A DNA stretch of 64,000 nt from Petrosia ficiformis (Eukaryota > Porifera > Demospongiae > Haplosclerida > Petrosiidae): the NCBI GenBank assembly GCA_947044365.1, contig OX345636.1, positions 28,004,466 to 28,068,465 of the forward strand. The letters are read 5' to 3'. Shown piece after piece: positions 4,397-33,770 of the stretch (position 1 is its first letter; each line of letters begins with the position of its first letter). The position numbers and the translations under genes were made by a program. The notes under the pieces are model-generated. The model did not search any database, was not told the origin of the DNA, and saw nothing but the letters and a program-made list of their open reading frames with translations.

Positions 4397-6260
4397 TCAA
4401 GATGGCATCATGAGTCTCAAACACGATCTAAAAGAAGGAATGTTTGTTTTCAATCGAACATTAAGAGGTAGGCGATTATAGTGAAATGCACCTTGGTACT
4501 CGAATGAACTCCTGTAAAATTCACTTTTGGGCTGGTTGATGTGTAGGTTGATTGCTCCACGAGTGTTAGTGTACATGGATGAGTTGAACATGAACTTTGA
4601 TGACAAGTAGTTAGGTGCTAGTTTAAGAGTACACCTGTGGACTTGGCACAACATGTTGTTATGGCGTCTTTGATGGAGTGTGGTCCAGTTCAGCTGTCGT
4701 CTCAGTGGAGAGCTACGGGTAAGTGGAGGTTTGCCCAGGATGACACGCATGCCATAGTTCTGTATTTGCTCAACCTTTTGGGAGATACTGGAATTGCAGG
4801 AGTGCCAAACTACTGAACAATAGTCCAGGTGTGGGAGTACTAGAGAGGAAAAAAAGATTTTGCGGGTAAGCACAGGGAGATAGCAGCTGGAACGTCTAAT
4901 ACATGCAATAGCAGCAAGAGACTTCCTACGCACATAATCTGTGCGGGACTTCCAGGAGAGATTGTTGTCAATCAACAAGCCTAGATACTTGATAGTATCT
5001 GTCTTCGTAATTTCGGTTCCTTGCAGTTCAATCTTTATTGAATTATTTTCTGGCTTCATTGCCCTCCGGGACAAAATCATAAACTGTGTTTTTGCAACAT
5101 TAATATGAAGACCATTGATTTTAATCCAGTTTGCAATGAGATCTAAATCTGTGTTGAGAGCTGATTGGACCTTGACAGGGTCCCTGTCTGAATAGTAGAT
5201 TGTAGTATCATCCGCATATAGATTGATAGAGCATTTAGTAACCACATCAGGCAAGTCATTGACAAAGATGAGGAAGAGCAGAGGGCCAAGAATTGAACCT
5301 TGAGGTACTCCCTTGGTGATATTAGCCCATTCAGAGTAGGTAGATTCAATACAAACTCGTTGAGAGCGTCCTGACAAGTACTCAGTGAACCAGTTTAGCT
5401 CCTTCCTCTGTATCCCAAGTGATGAGAGTTTGCGTAGTAGAAGTGTATGGTCAATAGAGTCAAATGCTTTGGTGAGATCAATCAGTATGGTCCCAACATG
5501 CTTACCGTTGTCGAGGGAGATTTCCCAATCATCTACTGTTTTCAGAAGAACATCCTGAGTACAATGTGCTGGACGAAAGCCAGATTGGCAAGAAGTTAAC
5601 AAAGAGTTTGAAGTCAAGTAGGTGTACAATTGATGATGTAGTAAAGACTCAAAGACTTTAGCTATTATTGGTAAAACTGAGATGGGGCAAAAATTGGAGA
5701 TTGAATGAGATGTTGTTGTCTTAGGGATTGGAGTGACATTGGCTTTTTTCCATTCAGTGGGAATCTGTCCACAGGTGAGGCTATCATTGAAAAGCTTAGT
5801 AATACTAGGAGCAACATCAGAGGCAACTGCTTGAAGAAGGTGGGCAGAGATGCCATCCACTCCAGTTGCTTTGTGGGGATTGAGTTTCTTTAGTGCAGCT
5901 CTAACTTCATCTTCAAGTATGGTTCGGAAGTGAAAGGTAGAGTCTACTGATCGTGGAGTTTGTATGCATGGCTGGTTACTGGATGGAGTTACTGATGCAG
6001 TGAAGTGAGTGTTCAATTTTTCAGATATGAGTGACTGGGATGTTATTGTTTGAGAGCCAATTTGAATATGAGATACTTGGCATTGCGACCAAGGGTTTTG
6101 TTAGCTCACCCCATACTTTGCTTGGTTCATTACCAAGATTACTACACAACTCTTCAAGGAATTCTTTTTTTGCAATTCTCAGTTCCTTTTTAACTTTGTT
6201 CCTCAGGCTACGATACTGTTCCCAGTCTGAGGGGTCCTTAGTCTTTTGAAACTTATGCAT
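4397..6260 (-). pseudogene. LINE reverse transcriptase part
   Basis: The reverse transcriptase that copies LINE RNA into DNA at the nick made by the endonuclease. The long open frame 6016-4397 (539 codons) shows the RT motifs in order: NPHKATGVDGIS, the AFDSIDH block, GVPQGSILGPLLF and the catalytic YADD (in LYADDTTIYYS). A thumb/C-terminal region with LDYCSVVWH follows. The preceding stretch 6260-6021 (RNKVKKELRIAKKEF) is the usual EN-to-RT linker, in another frame. The frameshift near 6018 and the break from the endonuclease near 6280 show that a single ORF2 has decayed. RT itself has no internal stop. Confidence 0.9.
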
Positions 6261-6282
6261 GTAGTAGTTTCAAGATCTCATC

Positions 6283-7270
6283 TCATCGTATATCACCGGA
6301 AATCCATTTCAAGGTCTGAGGCTTGTTCCTCACATTAATTAAAGGGGCATGTTTGTCCACTATGCCAAGGAAGAGGGTCTTCCAATAATCCCATTTGTCA
6401 TCTAATGAGTCAAATGTCTCAATTACTTCCCATGGGGCACTACAGAGGTCTTCAGATAGAAAAGTTGGATCACAATTCTTGAAAGAACGTACCTTTTGAA
6501 TTTTAGGAATATGATTATGAATCTTGTGTTGCCTAGTGATGTAGATCATGAGATGGTCACTTGCAGTTAGGGGAATTGTTCCGGAGGATGAGAAGGATTG
6601 AGGAGAGGAGGTGAAACAGAGATCAATAATAGTTTGGGAATGATTTGAAACACGAGTAGGAGTAGAAATAACCTGTGTAAGTTGATAGTCCAGCATGATG
6701 GTGATGAGGGTTCTAGTTGTTAAACTAGGAGAGAGAATATTACAATTGAAGTCACCCATGATCAACAGCTTTTTGAGTTCCTTTGACGCAAGCTCCATCA
6801 TAACACTGAGGGCATCCAAAAAGGAGCCATCAGCCCGAGGGGGTCTATAGATGTTGCACAGCAAGATGGTAGATCTTTGTATATGTATCTCCAACCAAAT
6901 GGCTTCAATGCAATCATTCTCTAAATCAGGTCTTCTTCGGCATCTGATAGAGCTGGGAACAAGTACAAGGACTCCACCACCCCTACCTTTCGGTCTATCC
7001 CTCCTAAAGAGTTGATAGTTGTCAACTGAGACTGATACATCTGGAATGGAGCTGTCAAGCCAAGTCTCACTTAGTCCCAGGATGGTGGGGGATGCACTAT
7101 GAGAGAGGAAGTCTGATATTTCATCATGCTTGATGGACAACAGGGATTGAACATTTAGGTGACAGAACACCAGGTCCTTTGGAGAAAAGGATGGATTAAG
7201 AGAGGTGTCAAGAGTAGAGGTATCAAGAATCTCAGGTTTAGTGGACAAAGAGCCTGCAGTGAGCATAGGG
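6283..7270 (-). pseudogene. LINE apurinic/apyrimidinic endonuclease part
   Basis: The endonuclease domain that nicks target DNA during target-primed reverse transcription. It begins with FCHLNVQSLL and continues through LGLSETWLD, NIYRPPRA, GDFNCNI and a final ASDH. These are the expected Asn, Glu, Asp-Asn and Ser-Asp-His catalytic positions of the exo/endo/phosphatase fold. The open frame extends upstream to 7395, but the part above about 7270 overlaps the PHD finger in another frame and is a shadow. The frameshift near 7265 separates it from the PHD/2A segment, and a stop at 6283 separates it from the RT. Confidence 0.88.
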
Positions 7271-7729
7271 AAGCTCAGACAGTGTGCAGGTTGGACAGAA
7301 CCACTTACAGGAATCCTCAAGGGCTGAGATTCGCTGATACTCATCATCATCCACATAGCAGCATCTAGCGTGAGTCCACATGTCACACCTGTCACAGAGA
7401 GTTCCCTTTTGATTCAACTTAACTGGTTTACAACATGAGGTACAGGGGTACTTAGTAGGTCCAGGGTTAGATTCAACATCTCCAGCTATGAGTAGTAGCC
7501 AGTAAGATGATGGTATATGAGGACGGAGTTTCTTGTTGAGGGGAGCGAGGTGAGGATTTCTTCTCCATACATACAACAAGAAGGCTTTAGTTGATTTTGG
7601 AGAAAACAATAGTTGCCCATCCCATGTGTGAGGCTGTTCTTCGTCATAGGTAGCATAGGTCAAGGTCAACCTCAAAACCACAAAACACACCGAAAACGTC
7701 AGAGACAAAAAGTAACATCTACATGCCAT
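7238..7729 (-). CDS. LINE N-terminal segment: signal-like leader, 2A peptide, PHD finger
   Basis: I start it at the ATG at 7729, which puts a strongly hydrophobic leader first (LSLTFSVCFVVLRLTL, residues about 8-23). About 90 residues in is the 2A motif GDVESNPGP (7483-7457), where ribosomes skip the Gly-Pro bond and release the leader. Immediately after it comes a PHD-type finger: CTSC, CDRCDMWTHARC and WFCPTC. 2A sequences near the N-terminus of APE-type LINEs are established; combining one with a secretory-type leader is the dual-targeting arrangement reported for some invertebrate 2A proteins. The frame ends at 7238, where a frameshift disconnects it from the endonuclease. An open frame reaches 7843, but that part crosses the palindrome. 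Confidence 0.82.
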   Translation of the reverse strand: MACRCYFLSLTFSVCFVVLRLTLTYATYDEEQPHTWDGQLLFSPKSTKAFLLYVWRRNPHLAPLNKKLRPHIPSSYWLLLIAGDVESNPGPTKYPCTSCCKPVKLNQKGTLCDRCDMWTHARCCYVDDDEYQRISALEDSCKWFCPTCTLSELPYAHCRLFVH

Positions 7730-7753
7730 CACACGTGCACATGACCTCAGTAC

Positions 7754-7817
7754 GGTTTCTACTGATTTATCAAACCTCGTGCCTTCGGCCCTCGGTTTGA
7801 TAAATCCAGTAGAAACC
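7754..7817. repeat. palindrome at the LINE 5' edge
   Basis: Arms GGTTTCTACTGATTTATC.. (7754-7776) and ..GATAAATCCAGTAGAAACC (7794-7817) are nearly perfect inverted copies. They close on a GC-rich loop containing CCTCGTGCCTTCGGCCCTCGG. It belongs to the palindrome family described at 7826-8298. Confidence 0.85.
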
Positions 7818-7825
7818 TTTACCTC

Positions 7826-7962
7826 GGTGTATAACCTATACATATATATATATATATATATATATGTATAGGTTATAACACCCTACGAGTGGTATATCAG
7901 ATTTATAATCACCAAGCACGAGGTGATTATAATTCTGATGTAGCAAAGGCGTGTTATAATTA
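7826..7962. repeat. two adjacent palindromes around a TA microsatellite
   Basis: The first palindrome (7826-7882) reads GGTGTATAACCTATACATAT, a TA run, then the mirrored ATATGTATAGGTTATAACACC. The second (7883-7962) has arms TATCAGATTTATAATCACC and GGTGATTATAATTCTGAT around an 8-nt loop, with outer arms extending to GTGTTATAA. The second shares its arm sequence with the palindrome at 63676-63795. Confidence 0.85.
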
Positions 7963-17872: not shown

Positions 17873-17874
17873 TA

Positions 17875-17901
17875 CAGTAGCCACAGAAAAAAAGGTTACA
17901 C
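17875..17901. repeat. left TIR of the Tc1/BEN element
   Basis: Starts CAGTAGCCACAG, ends AAGGTTACAC; preceded by TA (17873-17874). Confidence 0.92.
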
Positions 17902-18087
17902 GTTTCCTTCCACTTTATTAAAACAGAGTTCCATTTCCATTTAAAACAGAAAGGCAAGACAAAAACGGAAACGGAAATGATGCGGCACTGCGCTTAATTA
18001 TAATAATTAATTATGGGCGTGTCTTTTGTTGTACGCATGCTCACAGGCGATCTACAAACCAGCTGAACTGCGGATGTTACGAGAAGT

Positions 18088-19462
18088 ATGGCCGAAGTTT
18101 CAGAGATGTTGCTGCTTAAATGGCAGGGTAATAATTCTAAACGCTATGATGGCAAAATCAATAAGGAATATTTGAAAAATATAATGAAAAGAGATAAATC
18201 TAAAGAGTTGAAAGTTGGTGATAATGTGGAAGTTAAATATGGCAGAAGCAGCATTTGGAAAGCTACAGTAGTGCAGTATCCATTGAAAGTGGAAAAGAAA
18301 CGAAAGAAAAAAGGTTTGTGCTTTACTCTATGCAGTGTTGTTTGCATGTATATAATATGTGTGTACTAATTATTCATTGTAATAGTTCTATATTATATAT
18401 ATTGTTATTATTTATTGATCAATAGAGCAACAAAAACTAGTTGCAAAACCAGTGAAGAAGCAGAAAAAGGAAGGTATAATTATAATTGCTAGTGGGAATC
18501 CAGCAGTAGAAAATGGAGATGATGGAGAAGATAATGAAGTAGAAGATAGAGATGATGAAGAAAAGAAAGAAGGAGTAAATGATATAGAAATGATCAATGA
18601 GAGAAAAGTAGCAAAGAATCATAATAGTATAGAAAAAGAAGGATCAAATATACAACATGTACGTGTACGTGTAGAGAATGAAGAAGTAGATGATAGACAG
18701 ATGATTAACGAGAGGAAGGTAGAAAAGAGTACGCAAACAGAAGGATCAGATGAGAATGGAGTAGATGATAGATTGACAAATAGCGAGAGAAAGGTAGAAA
18801 AGAGTACACAAACAGAAGAAGGATCAGATAAGTATGAAGTAGATGATATATTGATAATTAATAAGAGAAAAGTAGAAAGCAGTACACAAACAGAAGACGA
18901 ATCAGATATACATGAAGAGATTAAGATGCTGAACAATAAAATAGATAACTTAATGGGTATGTTTGCTGGACAAACCACCCCATATGATAATGCTGAAATA
19001 CCTCCATATATTATTAATGATATCCCGCCCCTTTCTCCGCCCATTTGTTATGACAGTATCATGGATATTGACATGCCAGATTTACATGCAATATTGAATG
19101 CTACTTTACCACTTGACAGTGGCTCGAAAGCACTTTCAAAACCATCTTCAAAACCATCTTCAAAAACCGTTGAAGAAATACTCAAAATAACTTACAGAGA
19201 CCCACCAAAATTGGCACGAGACCTGGCCAGAGCTGTTTTTGGCTCAGAAACACTTAGATGTTCCACCATTACAGGAAGACAGGTGAGGGGTATGAAAACC
19301 AGTGTGTTGAACATGGAAAAGCTCCTGTTTGTAAAAGGACTAGTTAAGTCTAAATATTCTTCACTCTCAGTTGTGGAATTTGAACTGGTATGGGGTAAAT
19401 GTATTAAATCAATTGCCGATTTATGCAAGAAGTTACGTGATGATCATATAATATTAGATTAA
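18088..19462 (+). CDS. BEN-domain protein, two exons (transposon cargo)
   Basis: Exon 1 is 18088-18313 and exon 2 is 18426-19462. The GT-AG intron falls after the first base of a codon and the frame continues exactly, giving 420 residues. Residues 1-70 contain LLLKWQG and LKVGDNVEVKYG, a small basic-hydrophobic domain common at the start of BEN proteins. Then come a Lys-rich stretch, an acidic region, and about four 25-residue repeats (VDDRxxINERKVEKSTQTE) at about 140-235. A low-complexity SKPSSKPSSK spacer leads to a C-terminal BEN domain (about 328-415: LARDLARAVFG, STITGRQ, CIKSIADLCKKLR). BEN domains bind DNA and recruit chromatin factors in the nucleus. Two repeats match the KxTQT dynein-light-chain (LC8) motif. 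The gene lies wholly inside the TIRs of a Tc1/mariner element, convergent with its transposase. Confidence 0.85.
18314..18425 (+). other. intron of the BEN-domain gene
   Basis: 112 bp from GTTTGTGC to TGATCAATAG, AT-rich. Donor AAG/GTTTGT, acceptor AATAG/AGCAA. The reading frame is preserved across it, and the donor side would read into a stop at 18369 if unspliced. Confidence 0.8.
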
Positions 19463-20116
19463 AGAAAAAAGAATATTGGAGAATATTGTTATTTGTTAAA
19501 TTAAAATAGTTATATTACTTTTAGCAGGTATAGATATTAGTGTAATGCATTTATGATCTATTGTTTTACTACTTTGATGTACTTTAAGCAGGAGTGGCTA
19601 GACTACACTTTTCATTTTTGATACGTGTTTGTTTTAGTGTATCTCCTCCCTGCCACTTTATAGTTATCATGTTCAAATTTGAAAATTATATTTTGTTGAA
19701 AAGTTCAATGATGTTCTAATTGTGACTAAATGTTTGTTTAGTCTATCTCCTCCCTGCCACTAAATTATGTTCAAAGGTTAAAATTATTATCTTGTTGAAA
19801 AGTCCTTATTACAAAACTTTTGCATACATGATTTATCTAAAAGATCAAACTAAAAAAATTGTTCTCGATACCCTTTGTGAAAGATGTGTATTTCAATCAG
19901 CACAAACTAATAATGCCTAAGCACACATTGAATAAAGGCTGAGCATTCCTACAAGCTAACTCAATCAACTGGTAGAAGACACCAGCCAAATCATCAGATG
20001 CACATGGCATTACAACTACATATAATAATAAATGGTGTCATCTTTTGTATTCGGGGTGGCACTGAAAAGAGCCTTTTAGAGGGTAAAAAAAAAAAGAAAA
20101 AAAAGGTGAAATCTAG
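19463..20116. other. convergent 3' region between BEN gene and transposase
   Basis: Non-coding. It contains a diverged direct duplication of about 110 bp (TATCTCCTCCCTGCCAC at 19638 and 19743, each followed by a GTTGAAAAGT segment). An ATTAAA hexamer overlaps the BEN stop codon and an A-rich run lies at 20089-20104 next to the transposase stop. Confidence 0.55.
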
Positions 20117-21121
20117 CTAATATCCTGTGGGTTCTCCATTTGCTTCAATTGCTTTAGGAATCACTTTTTTAAGGTGTCGTATGTATTTTATACATTTTGG
20201 TACATCAACTGTTTTCCAAAACTCTTGAATCCCACCTATTAGCTCATCCTTTGTAGTTGGTTTGATATCTCGTCTGAGATACTCCTTCACTTCATGCCAG
20301 AGATTCTCTATCGGATTGAAGTCTGGCGATTCAGCTGGTGTCTTCCACCAGTTGATTGATTTAGCTTGTAGGAAAGCTTTAGCCTTTATTGATGTGTGCT
20401 TAGGATCATTGTCCATCATTAGTCGGTGGTGATCAGGATACACATCTCTCACAAATGGTATCAAAAAGTCGTTTAAAATCTGACAAAATCCATCAGCTTC
20501 TAGTGTGCCTGTGAAAATACAAATATTGGTAGCTCCTCTACAACTAATGCCTGCCCATACATGGACTTTGAATGGATGCTTAGGACGAGGTTTAGGAGTT
20601 GGCTGCTCTCCCCTTTTCCTATGACAAAATCTCCTGTGAGACTCCATTTGAATAGAAGCTTCGTCTGTCCAAATGACGTCTTCAAACTCACATTCCATAT
20701 TCTCCGTTGCCCATGCAAGACGTTTCACTTTGTTGGGCTGGCGTATCAGTTGACAATATGCTGATCCTCTGAACGTCCAACCCAAGAGTCTTCGACTATT
20801 CAGTATGGTCGTCAGAGACACTTCGTGGCCAAGGCTCGCTAATAGCTTGTGAAGTTGGACAGCAGTTGTTTCATCGTCTGTTCTCATCTGTATTTCAACT
20901 ATCCTTAGTACCTCCATGGAAAGCTTTGTAGATCTCCCTGATCCCTGTCTTCGCTCTATAGTTCCATCAATCTCGTATCTTCTCAGAAACGCCGCGACGC
21001 TCTTTCTAGTGGTAACTATTCCTTCTTTATGCAACAACCTAGCAACCTCCGCCCTATTATCTCTTCCTTCGACATAAACTAAATGGACAATTCTTTGCTT
21101 AGCATATACAGACAAAACCAT
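20117..21121 (-). CDS. Tc1/mariner transposase, DD34E, intact
   Basis: A 334-residue cut-and-paste transposase acting on the flanking TIRs. I start at the ATG at 21121 (MVLSVYAKQRIV), because this gives a normal Tc1 length (about 340) and begins at the first HTH; an open frame extends upstream to 21208. There are two N-terminal helix-turn-helix regions (NRAEVARLLHKEGI.. and ..VSLTTILNSRRLLGW) joined by a GRSTK hook. The catalytic triad is Asp in VIWTDEAS, Asp in MMDNDPKHTS and Glu in NPIENLWHEVK, with 34 residues between the second and third (DD34E). There is no stop or frameshift, so the protein could be active. It is convergent with the BEN-domain gene inside the same element. Confidence 0.93.
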   Translation of the reverse strand: MVLSVYAKQRIVHLVYVEGRDNRAEVARLLHKEGIVTTRKSVAAFLRRYEIDGTIERRQGSGRSTKLSMEVLRIVEIQMRTDDETTAVQLHKLLASLGHEVSLTTILNSRRLLGWTFRGSAYCQLIRQPNKVKRLAWATENMECEFEDVIWTDEASIQMESHRRFCHRKRGEQPTPKPRPKHPFKVHVWAGISCRGATNICIFTGTLEADGFCQILNDFLIPFVRDVYPDHHRLMMDNDPKHTSIKAKAFLQAKSINWWKTPAESPDFNPIENLWHEVKEYLRRDIKPTTKDELIGGIQEFWKTVDVPKCIKYIRHLKKVIPKAIEANGEPTGY

Positions 21122-21336
21122 GGCAAAAACAAACAATGAAGTACTGGCGAAGCAATATAATGTAATACGCGCGTAAAAATTTAAATTATATAATATAATA
21201 ATTATCATTAAACCGCAAACGGAAACCGTTTCTTCCGTTTCTCTTTATCCCCTTTCTCTTTTTGAGTTTTCCCGTTCTGTTTAGGAAAATGGAAATGGAA
21301 AGTATAAACGGAAACAGAGCATACATAACAGCAAAT

Positions 21337-21363
21337 GTGTAACCTTTTTTTCTGGGGCTACTG
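21337..21363. repeat. right TIR of the Tc1/BEN element
   Basis: Starts GTGTAACC, ends GGGGCTACTG; followed by TA (21364-21365). One mismatch to the left TIR. Confidence 0.92.
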
Positions 21364-21723
21364 TATATGCAGCAAGAGTTAAATCTGAGGAGTGGCTCAG
21401 GTATTGTATGGTTTAGCTGATGGCTTACAGGTGTTGATAAGAGTTCAAAAATGTGCCTAGTGTGCATATGAATGGTATAGTGTTAGTAGGCAGTATGCAT
21501 GTAAAAGTGCAAATGATTTGCTGTATGCACCATTCTGCAGGTGACACCCTGTACAGTCAACTAAAACCTGATTATTTTACACCTGTAGGCCATAGCATAG
21601 ATACAATACAGAAAGTCTAGTACTACTAATTTACTCCTGTTGCACCTCAGTGTTGCTTTTATAGTCCTGTTCACAACTCACTCTGTGGCGAAAGAAGTGG
21701 TTTTGCTTATGGCTTGGCTTTGG

Positions 21724-27905: not shown

Positions 27906-28028
27906 GGCGGAACCAATAAGGAAGCGTTTTGGGAACTCTCTATCGTCTGCGAAATCCTGTAGCAATGGAAACTTGTGCGTCCAGCTGTTTACCTTTGTTC
28001 TTACACCTGGCAGCTTACTACTACTAGT

Positions 28029-31000
28029 ATGTCTACTGCTAGTATGGAGAACAAGAAAGCTAAACGTGCTCCGTGTAAACGAGTACTTGAAAAGGAAAAT
28101 TTAGATAGTATAGAAAGCCGTACGAGTGGTTCATGTAGTCCAAAGATACCTCGTCTAACAAATTCTGAGACCTGTACAGCTGTCCAACTATCTCTTCAAA
28201 ACCCAGACAATTCTTGTAGCTCCTCCCACAACAATGGAGGGCAAGAACGCTTGAGCAGGAGAGATAGAGAAAGACTGAGAAGACAAACTGAAACAGAAGA
28301 GCAGCGTAGTATCCGACTGAATAAACAAAGGGTACTCAACCGTAGACGTAGGAAAACTGAAAGTTTACAGGAAAGGGCAATACGTTTGGAAACAATGAGA
28401 CAAAGAGCTTCTATACGTAACAGTGTAGAGACTGAAGAACAAAGGTCCAGTCGGCTTGCTGACTTGAGTCAACGTGCTACTGTACGTGTCAGTGAGGAGA
28501 CTGAAGAAGAAAGGACCAGTCGTCTTGCTGACTTAAGACAACGTGCTAATGTACGTGTCAGTGAGGAGACTGAAGAAGAAAGGACCAGTCGTCTTGCTGA
28601 CTTGAGTCAACGTGCTAATGTACGTGTCAGTGAAGAGACTGAAGAAGAAAGGACCAGTCGTCTTGCTGACTTGAGTCAACGTGCTAATGTACGTGTCAGT
28701 GAGGAGACTGAAGAAGAAAGGACCAGTCGTCTTGCTGACTTGAGTCAACGTGCTAATGTACGTGTCAGTGAGGAGACTGAAGAAGAAAGGACCAGTCGTC
28801 TTGCTGACTTGAGTCAACGTGCTAATGTACGTGTCAGTGAGGAGACTGAAGAAGAAAGGACCAGTCGTCTTGCTGACTTGAGTCAACGTGCTAATGTACG
28901 TGTCAGTGAAGAGACTGAAGAAGAGAGGTCTAGCCGTTTAACTGATGCACGAATCAGAACTGCTTTTCATGTTAGTGAAGAGACCAGTGATGACAGGTCA
29001 CGCAGACTTCAGGTTATGAGTGACCGTGCATATGTACGTAGAAGTAGTGAGTCATCTGAAGCTAGAGAAGTTCGTCTGCAGACACTTAGAATACATAATC
29101 AATCTACAAGAGCCTGTACTACTCCTGTTCTTACACCACCAGTAAGTGGTGAGGAGCAAAGACGACTTCATCAGTTATCTCAAGATTTGGAGAAATTCAG
29201 GTCTGAGATTATTGTAAGCCCTAGTAATTCCTGCTTCTCGTGTCATCGCCTCACCTACCCCCAAGGAGGATCGTATGTGACCTATGAAACAGTAGAGGAC
29301 TTGATAGCGCCATTATATTCACATGCAACAACTATACCACTTCCTGATGTTCCTGAAGGTGAGTGTGTTTGGTTGTGTACACGTTGTCAGTCCATACTGG
29401 GTAAAGGGAAAGTACCACCTTATGCATGTATTAACAACATACAAGTTGTTGAAGTCCCTCCTGTATTATCTGTGTTAAACACAATGGAGCAGAGGTTGAT
29501 ATCTAAAGTACAAGCCTTTATGAAGCTTATAGTACTTCCATTAGGTCAAAGAGCATTGGCTGGCCAAAGTATAAATTTCCCTGTTGATGTTTCGCAGGTA
29601 TGTAATGCTCTACCTAGACCAATTGATGAATCTGGTGTAATACTAGTACAATCATCATCATCAACTTCTGCTTCAACCTCAACTGCTGAAGGGGGGGAAG
29701 GTTCATCATCTACTGTACCATCATCATCTTTTGTAACCACTCATTCCAGCAAAGGGTATGTGGTTAGAAAGCCTAAAATTATGAGAGCTTTACATTGGTT
29801 AAAGACTTCAAATGTATTGTATGGTAATATCACATGTGATGATAGTGATAATAATATTGATGAAGATGATGATGCAAATAATAATAATGATGCAGATAAT
29901 GATGATAATACCAATGAAGAAGATGATGAACAACAACAACAACAACAACAAGGTACAGTTAATAGGCCTCCCCAATTAGAAAGTTCAGTAGTTAGGACGG
30001 ACTTTAACATGCCTAACACGGAAGCTGTTGACATCATTCGTAATGGAGATTTCAATTATCCAGTTTATAGACTACCACGTGTTGAAGGCCAGCCTATTAG
30101 TTTGTTTACTGATGCTAAAGCAGAGGAAATGGCATTTCCCTGTTTGTTTCCCAATGGTGTCAATGGTTTCCTAACAGCCCGTGATCCAGCAATAAGTATT
30201 ACGGACTATATTCAAATCCGTTTACTTAATGCTGATAGTAGATGGGCTAGTCACATTCCCTATTTATTGTGGTCATGTAATCTCCTTGAGCAACACAGAC
30301 TACGTGATGCAGTTTGCATTGCAATGAGAATCCGATCCTCCTCGGGGGGTAGGCGACCTAGAAACCGTTTAGATCAAGCACAACAACAAGAGCATGACCA
30401 ACAGGCTTTGACAGCTGGTGATCTCTTGAGTGATACATCCTCAAAGAACCCTGACCTGTCTGAGAATTGTTTTGGTTTCATGCGTAATATTCGCGGCTCA
30501 GCTGCATATTGGCAGAGGGCTAAGCTTGATCTATTTGCAATGTTTCGTACACTTAGACCTCCCACTTTCTTCCTCACACTCAGTGCTGATGATATGAACT
30601 GGACTGATCTGCTCTACATCCTAGCAAACCGTGATGGAATGAATCTCACTGAGCAACAGGCGAAAGAATTGCCAACAACACAGCGGAAACGTCTCTTGTG
30701 TAGTTACCCTGTGATTGTTGCTCAACACTTTTCTCACCGATTCAATTCGTTTATGAAATTTATTCTAAATGGAGATGGTAAACCCATTGGTGAAATTCTG
30801 GACTACTTTTGGAGGGTTGAGTTTCAGCAGAGAGGCTCACCTCACATCCATTCTCTGTGGTGGGTGAAAGATGCTCCTAACCTACGTACTGTCGAAGGTA
30901 AGAGAGCTACACCAGAGTTCATTGATAAATACATAACGTGTGGAGTACCAGTGATTGGTGAGGATGATGAATTAAGATCGCTAGTGATGAGAGTACAGAG

Positions 31001-33770
31001 ACACACTCATACCCAAACATGCCAAAAACAAGGTCGATTCAGATGTAGATTTGATTTCCCAAAGAAAGCGAGTGCAACTACTCACTTGAAACGTAACAGG
31101 GATATCGGCAATAAAGCTAGATTCTACGTTCTGAAAAGAGAACAGGGTGATGAATACATCAATCCTTACAACCCTCACATTCTCAGAGCCTGGGGTGCCA
31201 ACATGGACTTGCAAATGGTTGGCTCCGTCTACGGTGCTGCTCAGTACGTCTGCCATTATATGTGCAAAGACGAACCTAAGGAACTCAGACAGCTGATTTC
31301 TCGTAATCTAGAAAAGCTTCCTGAAAATTGTACTCAGAAATCACGTTTGTTAAAGATAGGTAACACCTTGATTAGTCATCGTATTCTGAGTGCTCAGGAA
31401 GCTGTTTACCGAACGACAGGTCTTCATTTACGTGGATCTTCGAGAGGTACAATATTTGTGAATACGGGAAGACCTCAGAAAAGGACGAGAGTATTAAAGT
31501 CAACTAGAAAGCTTCGGGAGATGGATGGTTGTGATACTGATGTCTTTGAAAGTGGACTATATGAGCGCTATGCTGCTCGTCCAGTTGGTGATCCATTTGA
31601 CAATATGAGCCTTGCTCATTTTGCTGTTTGGTACGCTACATCAAAGCCTCCTTCTACCTTTGGTACGTCAACTAGAGCTCAGCCTAGGTACGAACTACAA
31701 GGTAATAGTGGATGGATATACTTGCGTAGAAAGCAAGCATGTCTTCGTGTACCAACACTGACTCCCGAAGCTAATGGTGACGACTACTACTACCACTTGC
31801 TTATGTTGTATTTGCCATGGCGTAATGAAACTGTGGATCTCTTGGGTTCACATGCTACGGCTAAACAATCCTTTGTTTCCAACAACGATCGTCTCCTAGT
31901 ACTTGGTGGTGACCAAGCTTCGTTTGCTGCAGAAGTTGAACAAGCTACATGTCAATTGAGGGCACTTAATCAGTTTGGTGACACTGTTTATGCCCCAATA
32001 GCTCCTGGTGCAGCTCAACGAAATATGGAGATAGAAAACGAAGGTGCTGGACCAGACCCAATTTATTATGATGAAGCGCTGTTAGCTGATAATCATAGCA
32101 GCGCTTTAACTACTGATCAGCAAGGTGTTGGTGAAGTCAACCACTTGGCTTCCGATGATTACCTTGCTGATGCAGATGATGATCGCACTGTACGTGCAAT
32201 GGGCCAAAGACGCATGACGGATGCAGATTACCACCGAAAGGTTGATAGCCTCAATGAGTCACAACGTTTAGCCTTTCAAAAAGTTTTGAATTACACTACA
32301 GCTCAACACGAGTACCAGATGCATGCTGTACAGTCACCACCTGAGCCACTTAGGCTTTTCATTACCAGCGGCGCTGGTACTGGTAAGAGTCATGTGATTA
32401 GTGTAGTTCATGAGCACTTTGAAGGTGCCCAGATTGGCGACGGATGTGCTTGTATGTTGATGGCTCCAACTGGAGTAGCTGCATTCAATATCGGAGGTCT
32501 CACTATTCACAAAGCGCTCAACTTGCCTGTAGAGCATGGTAAAAGAACCACCTATCGCAAGTTAGCGAGTGAGAGACTTCACGGTATGCGACGTCTTTTG
32601 AAGAGTGTCACCACGATCATCATTGATGAGATCAGTATGGTCTCATATCAGACACTCAACTTTATTCACCAGAGATTGACTGAAATCAAAGGTACAGATG
32701 ACACTGAAGTTCTCTTCGGAGATCTCAATGTCATTGCTGTTGGAGACTTCTTTCAACTACCACCTGTTAGAGACAAATTTATATCTCAGGAAGGTAATGG
32801 TTATAATCCTGGTTCTACCCACTTGTGGAGAGATATCTTCACAATGGTGGAGCTGACGATTAACATGAGACAGATGGGTGACAACACTTACTCTCAAGTA
32901 CTGGGTAGAATTCGCACTGGACAGCAAACTCCAGACGATATCACTCTGCTCAGGACCCGTCTGACTTCTGGTATAGATACTCCAGTGGATATTGAACAGT
33001 CTCCATTCACAGATGCTCTGCGTCTGTTACCTTTGAAAGTCATGGTGGACGAATACAATACTCACCGTCTTCGACAGTTGGCGCAGGCGTCGACTGTGTT
33101 CGAATTCAAGGGTGAGCATTCAATTGTCGACTCCGATTCTGCTAGACAGAGTTACGGTGTCGTTCAACATGTTGATGTCCCAGAAAGACTCATCCCATCC
33201 GATGACAATGACTGTGCTGGCCTCCCAAGAAGTCTGAAACTGGCGGTTGGTGCACAAGTCATGCTCCGAAGAAACATCCTCTGTGAAGATGGACTAGTAA
33301 ATGGAGCACGTGGAATCGTGGTGGGATTTACTTGGCCTGATGGACAGCCAACACAGCCTGAAATTGGACAGCTACCTCAAAATGTTCTGGTCAACTTCCA
33401 CGATCCTCGTGTTGGTCGTATCAGCCGAGTGAGTGTTGAAGATGATGCAGAAGCTGTTCCAATTGAACCTGTGACGGCAAAATTCTATGGCCGAGAAGGA
33501 GTCACACTACAAAGGACTCAACTACTTTTACTTCCCTGTTGGGCTGCTACTATTCACAAAGTACAAGGGTTATCTCTTGATGCTGCTGTGATTGACCTAG
33601 GTCCCAAAGTGTTTGAAGATGGCATGGCTTATGTTGCTCTGAGTCGTGTCAGAACACTTGATGGTGTAGCTATAATTGATCTTGTATCCAGCAAAATCAA
33701 GGCCTCTCAGTTGGCAACTAAAGAGTTAGATCGGCTGAGAGGAGCTGATGTTCAAGATCGTGAGGAGTAA
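28029..33770 (+). CDS. Helitron Rep/helicase protein, intact
   Basis: A 1,913-residue rolling-circle transposase. The open frame extends to 27975, but the first ATG is at 28029. From the N-terminus: a basic region; seven 23-residue repeats (about 141-300); a zinc-finger pair (CFSCHR ... CTRCQ, about 400-460); acidic and Gln-rich low complexity (about 610-645); then the Helitron N-terminal domain. The HUH endonuclease has GSPHIHS (His-x-His near residue 938) and the two tyrosines in QYVCHYMCK (near 1072), which nick and covalently bind DNA. A PIF1-type superfamily 1 helicase follows: GAGTGKS (near 1447), IIIDEISMVS (near 1530), GDFFQLPPV, and C-terminal HKVQGLSL and YVALSRV. No stop or frameshift interrupts it, so this copy could be autonomous. 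I could not place the 5'-TC or the 3' CTRR hairpin ends. Confidence 0.95.
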   Translation: MSTASMENKKAKRAPCKRVLEKENLDSIESRTSGSCSPKIPRLTNSETCTAVQLSLQNPDNSCSSSHNNGGQERLSRRDRERLRRQTETEEQRSIRLNKQRVLNRRRRKTESLQERAIRLETMRQRASIRNSVETEEQRSSRLADLSQRATVRVSEETEEERTSRLADLRQRANVRVSEETEEERTSRLADLSQRANVRVSEETEEERTSRLADLSQRANVRVSEETEEERTSRLADLSQRANVRVSEETEEERTSRLADLSQRANVRVSEETEEERTSRLADLSQRANVRVSEETEEERSSRLTDARIRTAFHVSEETSDDRSRRLQVMSDRAYVRRSSESSEAREVRLQTLRIHNQSTRACTTPVLTPPVSGEEQRRLHQLSQDLEKFRSEIIVSPSNSCFSCHRLTYPQGGSYVTYETVEDLIAPLYSHATTIPLPDVPEGECVWLCTRCQSILGKGKVPPYACINNIQVVEVPPVLSVLNTMEQRLISKVQAFMKLIVLPLGQRALAGQSINFPVDVSQVCNALPRPIDESGVILVQSSSSTSASTSTAEGGEGSSSTVPSSSFVTTHSSKGYVVRKPKIMRALHWLKTSNVLYGNITCDDSDNNIDEDDDANNNNDADNDDNTNEEDDEQQQQQQQGTVNRPPQLESSVVRTDFNMPNTEAVDIIRNGDFNYPVYRLPRVEGQPISLFTDAKAEEMAFPCLFPNGVNGFLTARDPAISITDYIQIRLLNADSRWASHIPYLLWSCNLLEQHRLRDAVCIAMRIRSSSGGRRPRNRLDQAQQQEHDQQALTAGDLLSDTSSKNPDLSENCFGFMRNIRGSAAYWQRAKLDLFAMFRTLRPPTFFLTLSADDMNWTDLLYILANRDGMNLTEQQAKELPTTQRKRLLCSYPVIVAQHFSHRFNSFMKFILNGDGKPIGEILDYFWRVEFQQRGSPHIHSLWWVKDAPNLRTVEGKRATPEFIDKYITCGVPVIGEDDELRSLVMRVQRHTHTQTCQKQGRFRCRFDFPKKASATTHLKRNRDIGNKARFYVLKREQGDEYINPYNPHILRAWGANMDLQMVGSVYGAAQYVCHYMCKDEPKELRQLISRNLEKLPENCTQKSRLLKIGNTLISHRILSAQEAVYRTTGLHLRGSSRGTIFVNTGRPQKRTRVLKSTRKLREMDGCDTDVFESGLYERYAARPVGDPFDNMSLAHFAVWYATSKPPSTFGTSTRAQPRYELQGNSGWIYLRRKQACLRVPTLTPEANGDDYYYHLLMLYLPWRNETVDLLGSHATAKQSFVSNNDRLLVLGGDQASFAAEVEQATCQLRALNQFGDTVYAPIAPGAAQRNMEIENEGAGPDPIYYDEALLADNHSSALTTDQQGVGEVNHLASDDYLADADDDRTVRAMGQRRMTDADYHRKVDSLNESQRLAFQKVLNYTTAQHEYQMHAVQSPPEPLRLFITSGAGTGKSHVISVVHEHFEGAQIGDGCACMLMAPTGVAAFNIGGLTIHKALNLPVEHGKRTTYRKLASERLHGMRRLLKSVTTIIIDEISMVSYQTLNFIHQRLTEIKGTDDTEVLFGDLNVIAVGDFFQLPPVRDKFISQEGNGYNPGSTHLWRDIFTMVELTINMRQMGDNTYSQVLGRIRTGQQTPDDITLLRTRLTSGIDTPVDIEQSPFTDALRLLPLKVMVDEYNTHRLRQLAQASTVFEFKGEHSIVDSDSARQSYGVVQHVDVPERLIPSDDNDCAGLPRSLKLAVGAQVMLRRNILCEDGLVNGARGIVVGFTWPDGQPTQPEIGQLPQNVLVNFHDPRVGRISRVSVEDDAEAVPIEPVTAKFYGREGVTLQRTQLLLLPCWAATIHKVQGLSLDAAVIDLGPKVFEDGMAYVALSRVRTLDGVAIIDLVSSKIKASQLATKELDRLRGADVQDREE
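28449..28930 (+). repeat. 69-bp tandem repeats inside the Helitron gene
   Basis: Seven in-frame copies, nearly identical at DNA level, encoding RLADLSQRANVRVSEETEEER-type units, flanked by more diverged copies. The low divergence implies recent expansion or homogenisation. The 117-codon minus-strand ORF over it is a shadow. Confidence 0.93.

Follow-up and report, generated by a model that had tools for sequence, protein, structure and literature searches.

Can a Tc1/mariner transposon carry a second gene of its own, and hold on to it over a long descent? The question is raised by a stretch of 64,000 nucleotides of the sponge Petrosia ficiformis (GenBank assembly GCA_947044365.1, contig OX345636.1, positions 28,004,466 to 28,068,465 of the forward strand), hereafter the window. 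An initial annotation, made from the letters alone, had placed there an element with near-identical inverted repeats and TA on both sides, enclosing two intact, convergent genes: a DD34E transposase and a two-exon gene for a protein with a BEN domain. We found that this element is an autonomous-looking two-gene DD34E Tc1/mariner transposon. It belongs to an old and diverse lineage in which the transposase and the BEN gene are co-inherited in one element, mostly in convergent orientation.

A two-gene element that moved as one unit

The element covers 3489 bp (17875-21363 of the window) with TA on both sides. Its 36-nt arms (17873-17908 and 21330-21365, TA counted in) are 92% complementary, and, counting inward from the TAs, the left and the right end agree at 28 of the first 30 bases, which bears out the proposed repeats. 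Between these terminal inverted repeats (TIRs) lie two open, convergent genes, the BEN gene on the plus strand and the transposase gene on the minus strand; apart from shorter overlapping frames, no other frame of at least 60 amino acids (aa) is present. The transposase reads through 334 aa with no stops, in an open frame that extends to 21208 (363 aa), and the element is thus not a miniature inverted-repeat transposable element or another non-autonomous derivative. It matches Pfam DDE_3 with E 7.7e-23 and Sleeping Beauty with E 1.3e-20. The catalytic residues are D153, D237 and E272, and the 34 residues between the last two confirm the DD34E call.

The spliced BEN frame is predicted to encode 420 aa with no internal stop, so that the frame is kept across the 112-bp intron as the annotation had it. 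Taken alone, the window BEN protein scores weakly against Pfam BEN (16.9 bits for exon 2 and 19.8 bits for the domain only, with a cut-off of 23.2). A Pfam BEN scan of the genome gave 29 places at E <= 0.1, 21 of them over the cut-off, and listed a second copy of the element (described below) and not the window copy. Each of the 12 aligned family members has a Pfam BEN match at E <= 0.1, the best at 1.8e-10, and a profile of the 12 finds the structures of BEND3 (1.6e-13) and BANP (5.7e-6). The assignment of the window protein is therefore secure. A single-sequence model of the BEN segment (112 aa) contains five helices at a predicted local distance difference test (pLDDT) score of 55. The N-terminal module was modelled at pLDDT 67; its best Foldseek matches are double Tudor domains, all weak (best E 0.7), and a sequence search of exon 1 against solved structures gave no relative. 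The module may also resemble that of BEND5.

We searched the sponge's own assembly (191 Mb, 29 contigs) and scored 40 of 70 candidates, so that the copy counts are lower bounds. A second full-length copy, copy 2, lies at C1:40743329-40746846 and is 96% identical across the whole element. Its BEN exon 1 and intron are identical to those of the window, and its BEN frame is intact with 429 aa; its transposase lacks the final conserved residues and reads on, giving an open frame of 391 aa against 363 in the window. Copy 2 is inserted in a tandem satellite (ACATGTACATACACAACTG...) whose unit represents the uninterrupted empty site, with the TA duplicated around the insert. Further copies with the same TIRs and empty sites had been suggested as checks on the element, and both are thereby found. 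Therefore the transposase and the BEN gene of the window family moved as one unit. Since the ends and interior recur in copy 2 between other flanks, the window ends belong to one insertion, and a nested insertion, or TIRs mixed from different insertions, is ruled out.

Whether the BEN gene always lies inside such TIRs has a divided answer: the other full-length copy found has it, while deleted derivatives keep a piece of it or break off. A decayed older copy, split into two pieces about 13 kb apart (L009/L010), has kept both genes. In a diverged element, L012, BEN exon 1 is 64% identical over residues 5-75 and has the same exon end, and the transposase is turned round. The elements on C18 and at C1:14980609 have internal deletions, with remains of BEN exon 1 at one end and the start of the transposase at the other; an element with related TIRs on C9 is internally deleted and breaks off just inside BEN exon 1.

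An origin of the window BEN gene from a host gene of the same genome was considered, and the exon 2 query revealed no close host copy: the window, copy 2 and a single old, decayed copy were all that it listed. The arrangement that would speak for a host gene, TIR copies empty of BEN with the gene elsewhere as a host locus, was not seen. The exon 1 query gave five weaker places on C3 (5854676, 6077625, 6202014, 6495735 and 6563263) at 42-58% identity, with stops in each.

Table 1 Features of the two-gene element (window positions; a point marks features without a strand)
Feature	Position	Strand	Basis
TA target duplication, left	17873..17874	.	Sequence; same TA at both ends of the satellite copy
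Left terminal inverted repeat	17875..17908	+	36-nt arm with TA, 92%; 28/30
Two subterminal AAACGG motifs, left (17963, 17969)	17963..17974	.	
BEN gene exon 1, N-terminal module, weakly Tudor-like	18088..18313	+	Frame; homologs in other elements (by eye in L052)
GT...AG intron of the BEN gene, 112 bp	18314..18425	+	Same in copy 2; L012 exon 1 ends there, GT next
Exon 2 of the BEN gene and its stop, encoding acidic repeats, a coiled coil (putative, by eye) and the BEN domain	18426..19462	+	
Three 75-78-bp direct repeats, each with an STQTE motif of LC8-bound type	18664..18898	+	EKSTQTEG, EKSTQTEE, ESSTQTED
BEN domain	19208..19429	+	Pfam E 0.0075; profile to BEND3 1.6e-13
Inverted partial copy of transposase codons	19862..19998	.	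Repeats I1 and I2, 81% and 78%; alignment
DD34E transposase gene, 334 aa and stop	20117..21121	-	Frame, Pfam, Sleeping Beauty match
DDE_3 catalytic domain	20237..20680	-	Pfam
Four subterminal AAACGG motifs, right (21217, 21226, 21235, 21306)	21217..21311	.	
Right terminal inverted repeat	21330..21363	-	Same arm comparison
TA target duplication, right	21364..21365	.	Sequence

Just past the transposase stop, a piece of the transposase coding sequence (20322-20467) is repeated in inverted orientation (Table 1), seemingly also in the old decayed copy (a 64.7% alignment in L009). A transposase transcript through the inverted fragment could form a long hairpin. Nine listed places at C1:6840696-8977998 (L004-L008 among them) contain one and the same transposase fragment of about 456 bp (element positions 2461/2464-2929), identically bounded, as if another repeat had captured it. 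Elsewhere in the window, judged by eye, are a 1931-aa open frame similar to Helitron Rep/helicase (27975-33770, plus strand) and reverse-transcriptase/endonuclease frames similar to those of long interspersed nuclear elements (4397-7843, minus strand).

Pairing, shared descent and codon constraint

Is the two-gene element a single accident? A scan for related transposases, in which 120 of 627 candidates were scored, gave 140 rows that merged into 104 loci. Pfam BEN together with searches using three BEN proteins gave 121 merged BEN loci, two rows being joined into one. A related transposase lies no more than 3 kb from 63 of the 121 BEN loci, against 0.47 expected with 104 transposase loci; viewed from the transposase side, 61 of the 104 loci have a BEN match within 3 kb. 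The genes are convergent in 54 of the 63 pairs, on the same strand in seven and divergent in two.

Ten loci were fetched by transposase rank. They are 10 of the 11 that follow the two copies of the window family (family 1); the locus left out (rank 11, C1:22045550) has seven stops and no BEN match within 3 kb. The first BEN profile held five BEN segments, four of them from loci then searched, and the rerun excluded each locus's own family. With the profile so restricted, eight of the ten loci have a BEN frame (E 8.5e-24 to 1e-11), and L054 and L056 have none. The BEN remnants that the first profile had suggested at these two loci (E about 0.006) were rejected, and both are counted as misses.

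In L047, L048, L049 and L052, inverted repeats of their own with TA enclose both the transposase and the BEN gene. Their transposases are 52-60% identical to that of the window, those of L047 and L049 with one internal stop each, and in L052 the two genes run in the same direction. Some of the ten loci are kin: L051 with L052, L050 and L053 with L048, and L055 with L047. As L050 shares flanking DNA with L048, it is a segmental duplicate of it. Among the more distantly related pairs, L057 has a 57-nt inverted repeat around the transposase and the BEN domain, but the repeat cuts the upstream end of the BEN frame.

The trees of transposases and BEN domains were compared for 11 elements, three of them with transposases available as short pieces (128-222 aa). 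The two trees agree (Mantel r 0.80, reached by 0 of 20000 permutations), and they do so across elements at 45-60% transposase identity. The disagreements, the placement of L059 and the order among L047-L049, have low support. Between families, 0.74-0.88 of the synonymous sites of the BEN gene differ, which is near saturation, as against 0.21-0.43 of the nonsynonymous sites.

Three independent within-family BEN pairs gave a pooled nonsynonymous/synonymous ratio of 0.38-0.40 (p 0.0016-0.0045, depending on how 18.5 is rounded). This pool excludes window/copy 2, L048/L050 (which shares L048; ratio 0.77) and L058/L059 (ratio 0.58), the last because part of L058 seems to lie in another frame. Adding window/copy 2 raises the ratio to 0.44 (p 0.011), and adding L058/L059 as well raises it to 0.53 (p 0.0004). 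When pooled, the pairs show BEN codons under purifying selection, which answers in part the annotation's proposal to look for constraint.

The pairing of BEN and transposase loci, the four further TIR-enclosed families and the agreeing trees together make this a lineage and not a one-off, with the evidence drawn from one genome. Among outside collections, viral_contigs gave six weak matches, their best segments at 24-43% identity, and the prokaryote-only genome_contigs gave none.

Several side observations concern single loci. Upstream of the transposase of the L064 pair, where the piece examined contains no TIRs, lies a minisatellite of about 40 bp (L076 and the end of L064, around C1:58991250-58991800). 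A related multi-copy family (C10:5765333-5766449, C1:6496124-6497239, C1:55591854-55592968 and others) has a BEN match near several copies. Its transposase matches are split, residues 1-180 being separated from residues 179-334 by some 50-135 bp, which suggests an intron in the transposase gene. L067 (C5:6582458) and L068 (C5:1804154) contain BEN frames with no transposase within about 1.5 kb, L067 with an N-terminal module of similar look by eye; both are candidate host or domesticated genes. C1, which measures 63 Mb against at most 16 Mb for the other contigs shown, contains many of the BEN-transposase pairs.

The role of the BEN protein and rival explanations

What would the second protein do? 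Because the BEN gene is retained across families, its function may well be useful to the element. On balance we favour the view that the BEN protein is no random cargo but a second, element-encoded factor binding the ends or the target. The BEN domain at its C-terminus would recognise the DNA of the element, at the subterminal AAACGG-rich ends, and/or that of the target site. The acidic repeats, the coiled coil and, in family 1, the LC8-type motifs would make the protein dimeric, and the weakly Tudor-like N-terminal module could contact chromatin. Together these parts might join the transposase in assembling or bridging the two ends, or might steer the element to chromatin that suits it. The Myb/SANT protein of PIF/Harbinger transposons probably acts likewise.

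The two ends of the window element together contain six AAACGG sites, a number that 3 of 500 shuffles attain; the interior has none. The six sites lie upstream of both genes. L047 has AACGAT 11 times in its ends (0 of 500 shuffles), and AAACAG occurs seven times in L012 and in L027 (1 and 3 of 500 shuffles, respectively); in L012 none of 248 pairs of interior stretches reaches the same count. Thus four of seven elements have subterminal clusters beyond those of shuffled sequence.

As for targets, the window family and its two closest relatives provide seven independent insertions, five of which are at ACATG|TA; of the TA sites in 17 sources, 2.5% have this context. The pattern was noticed first and tested afterwards, and C7:4110159 and C7:4195310, which have identical flanks, were counted once. 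The BEN domain of NAC1 is reported to select ACATGT (PMC7764960), and a BEN-like fold in the Tn3 transposase reads the terminal repeat (PMC9579193). These motif and target patterns bear on the roles that the annotation had proposed for the BEN protein (binding the ends, silencing or protecting the element, or targeting insertion) without deciding between them.

Several points weigh against an end- or target-binding role in a two-gene lineage. No partner was listed within 3 kb for 58 of the 121 BEN loci and 43 of the 104 transposase loci; among the latter, 21 span less than 600 bp, and the 11 that span at least 900 bp may lack a BEN gene. For the distant pairs L057, L059-L062 and L064-L066, no TIRs were established within the sequence pieces examined. 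Between the two family-1 copies, the part of the constraint check that failed, BEN exon 2 has 0 synonymous and 4 nonsynonymous changes and exon 1 has none, with no sign of constraint. In the other families scanned, a single VATQT (L051/L052) was the only LC8-type motif within a BEN-gene frame, and such motifs were rejected as a general feature.

The motifs and targets have their own counterexamples. Some 6-mer reaches the count of the ends in 6 of 245 pairs of interior stretches of the window element and in 6 of 248 of L047. L048 has no subterminal motif cluster, and those of L049 and L052 are not significant. The ACATG target is found at 0 of 4 insertions in the other TIR-bounded families and is absent at the window copy itself. 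Moreover, ZB and Sleeping Beauty alone prefer palindromic AT-rich targets (PMC7913693).

A more far-reaching form of the same view is put forward tentatively, at odds that we would not call even. It supposes an obligate two-component Tc1/mariner lineage in animals, in which the BEN protein reads family-specific subterminal motifs and/or CATG-type targets, forms dimers and makes a bridge to chromatin. The recognition of ends and the choice of targets would have co-evolved with the transposase, and the lineage would be a possible source of animal BEN genes.

The rival that survives best, though we consider it unlikely, holds that the BEN protein is a chromatin or anti-silencing factor outside the transposition machine, which keeps the element expressed or shielded, for example by occupying LC8 or chromatin. 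BEN-solo proteins are described as acting in repression and chromatin insulation, and each family-1 protein has three STQTE motifs; in Drosophila, transposons are silenced through the binding of LC8 to TQT motifs in Panoramix (PMC7861614). The weakly Tudor-like N-terminal module would fit as well. Yet TQT motifs are not common to most families scanned, and the matches to Tudor domains, made with a model of pLDDT 67, do not go below E 0.7.

Less probable still, and in our judgement improbable, is a self-limiting repressor that sits on the subterminal repeats and curbs transposition or the transcription of the transposase, in the manner of copy-number control. The BEN proteins Insensitive and Elba are described as repressors, the subterminal motifs lie upstream of both genes, and the full-length family-1 copies found number only two, as a lower bound. 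But low copy number has many causes, and a repressor travelling with its element would be hard to hold under selection in the long term, yet the pair is old.

We give very little credence to a mere passenger, a host BEN gene that an ancestral element captured and that hitch-hikes, its conservation reflecting repeated recent spread only. The self-sufficiency of the Tc1, Sleeping Beauty and ZB transposases, BEN genes lacking a nearby transposase (L067 and L068) and the missing constraint between the two family-1 copies would suit it, but it is opposed by the pooled codon constraint and by trees that agree between well-diverged elements. Chance or nesting, with a BEN gene enclosed by or inserted in a mariner, or with TIRs from different insertions, is hardly credible: the window does contain other mobile-element-like frames by eye, but the same ends and interior in copy 2, and further families of the same arrangement, refute it.

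Relation to known systems

The window element has the TA duplication, TIRs, DDE_3 domain and DD34E spacing of Tc1, Sleeping Beauty and ZB. The usual single-gene Tc1/mariner element measures about 1.3 to 2 kb, whereas the elements described here measure 3.5 to 4.7 kb and have a second, intron-bearing BEN gene. The typical gene content of a transposase only does not apply, as BEN lies within the TIRs in the window, copy 2, L047, L048, L049 and L052. A C-terminal BEN domain is common to the window protein and to BEND3, BANP, NACC1, BEND5 and Insensitive/Elba. The latter are encoded by host chromosomal genes, whereas the window BEN gene lies inside a transposon. A coiled coil is likewise present in BANP, which functions as an oligomer (PMC11472053).

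Accessory genes are known beside a Tc1/mariner transposase in the TBE transposons of Oxytricha, where they were called surprising for this superfamily; the available text of that report describes a zinc-finger/kinase protein of 57 kDa and another of 22 kDa in which no domains are predicted, and names no BEN domain (PMC12242761). The window element has no accessory frames of these two types, and the Pfam matches of its BEN gene include no kinase. In the PHIS superfamily (PIF/Harbinger, ISL2EU and Nuwa), most groups have two genes, a DDE transposase and a separate Myb/SANT or YqaJ DNA-binding protein (PMC4482050). There the transposase type, the second protein and the target duplications all differ from the DDE_3 Tc1-like transposase and BEN protein of the window.

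BEN genes are carried by mobile genomes in bracoviruses and poxviruses; the bracovirus proteins are viral and reach 1200 aa, and the available text names mariner only as a separate transfer (PMC4574769). Among the titles and openings of abstracts on BEN domains and transposons, a coverage with most subscription papers and Repbase outside it, we found no BEN-carrying mariner. Within this literature, as in the annotation, no described two-gene BEN-mariner family is known.

Tc1/mariner elements are textbook one-protein transposons and widely used tools of genome engineering. In a long-lived lineage that also carries a gene for a second DNA-binding protein, they would have their own counterpart of the two-protein design of Harbinger. 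Such a lineage makes testable how transposons come to bind their ends, choose targets or counter silencing, and it prompts the question of whether domains have been exchanged between animal BEN genes and transposons.

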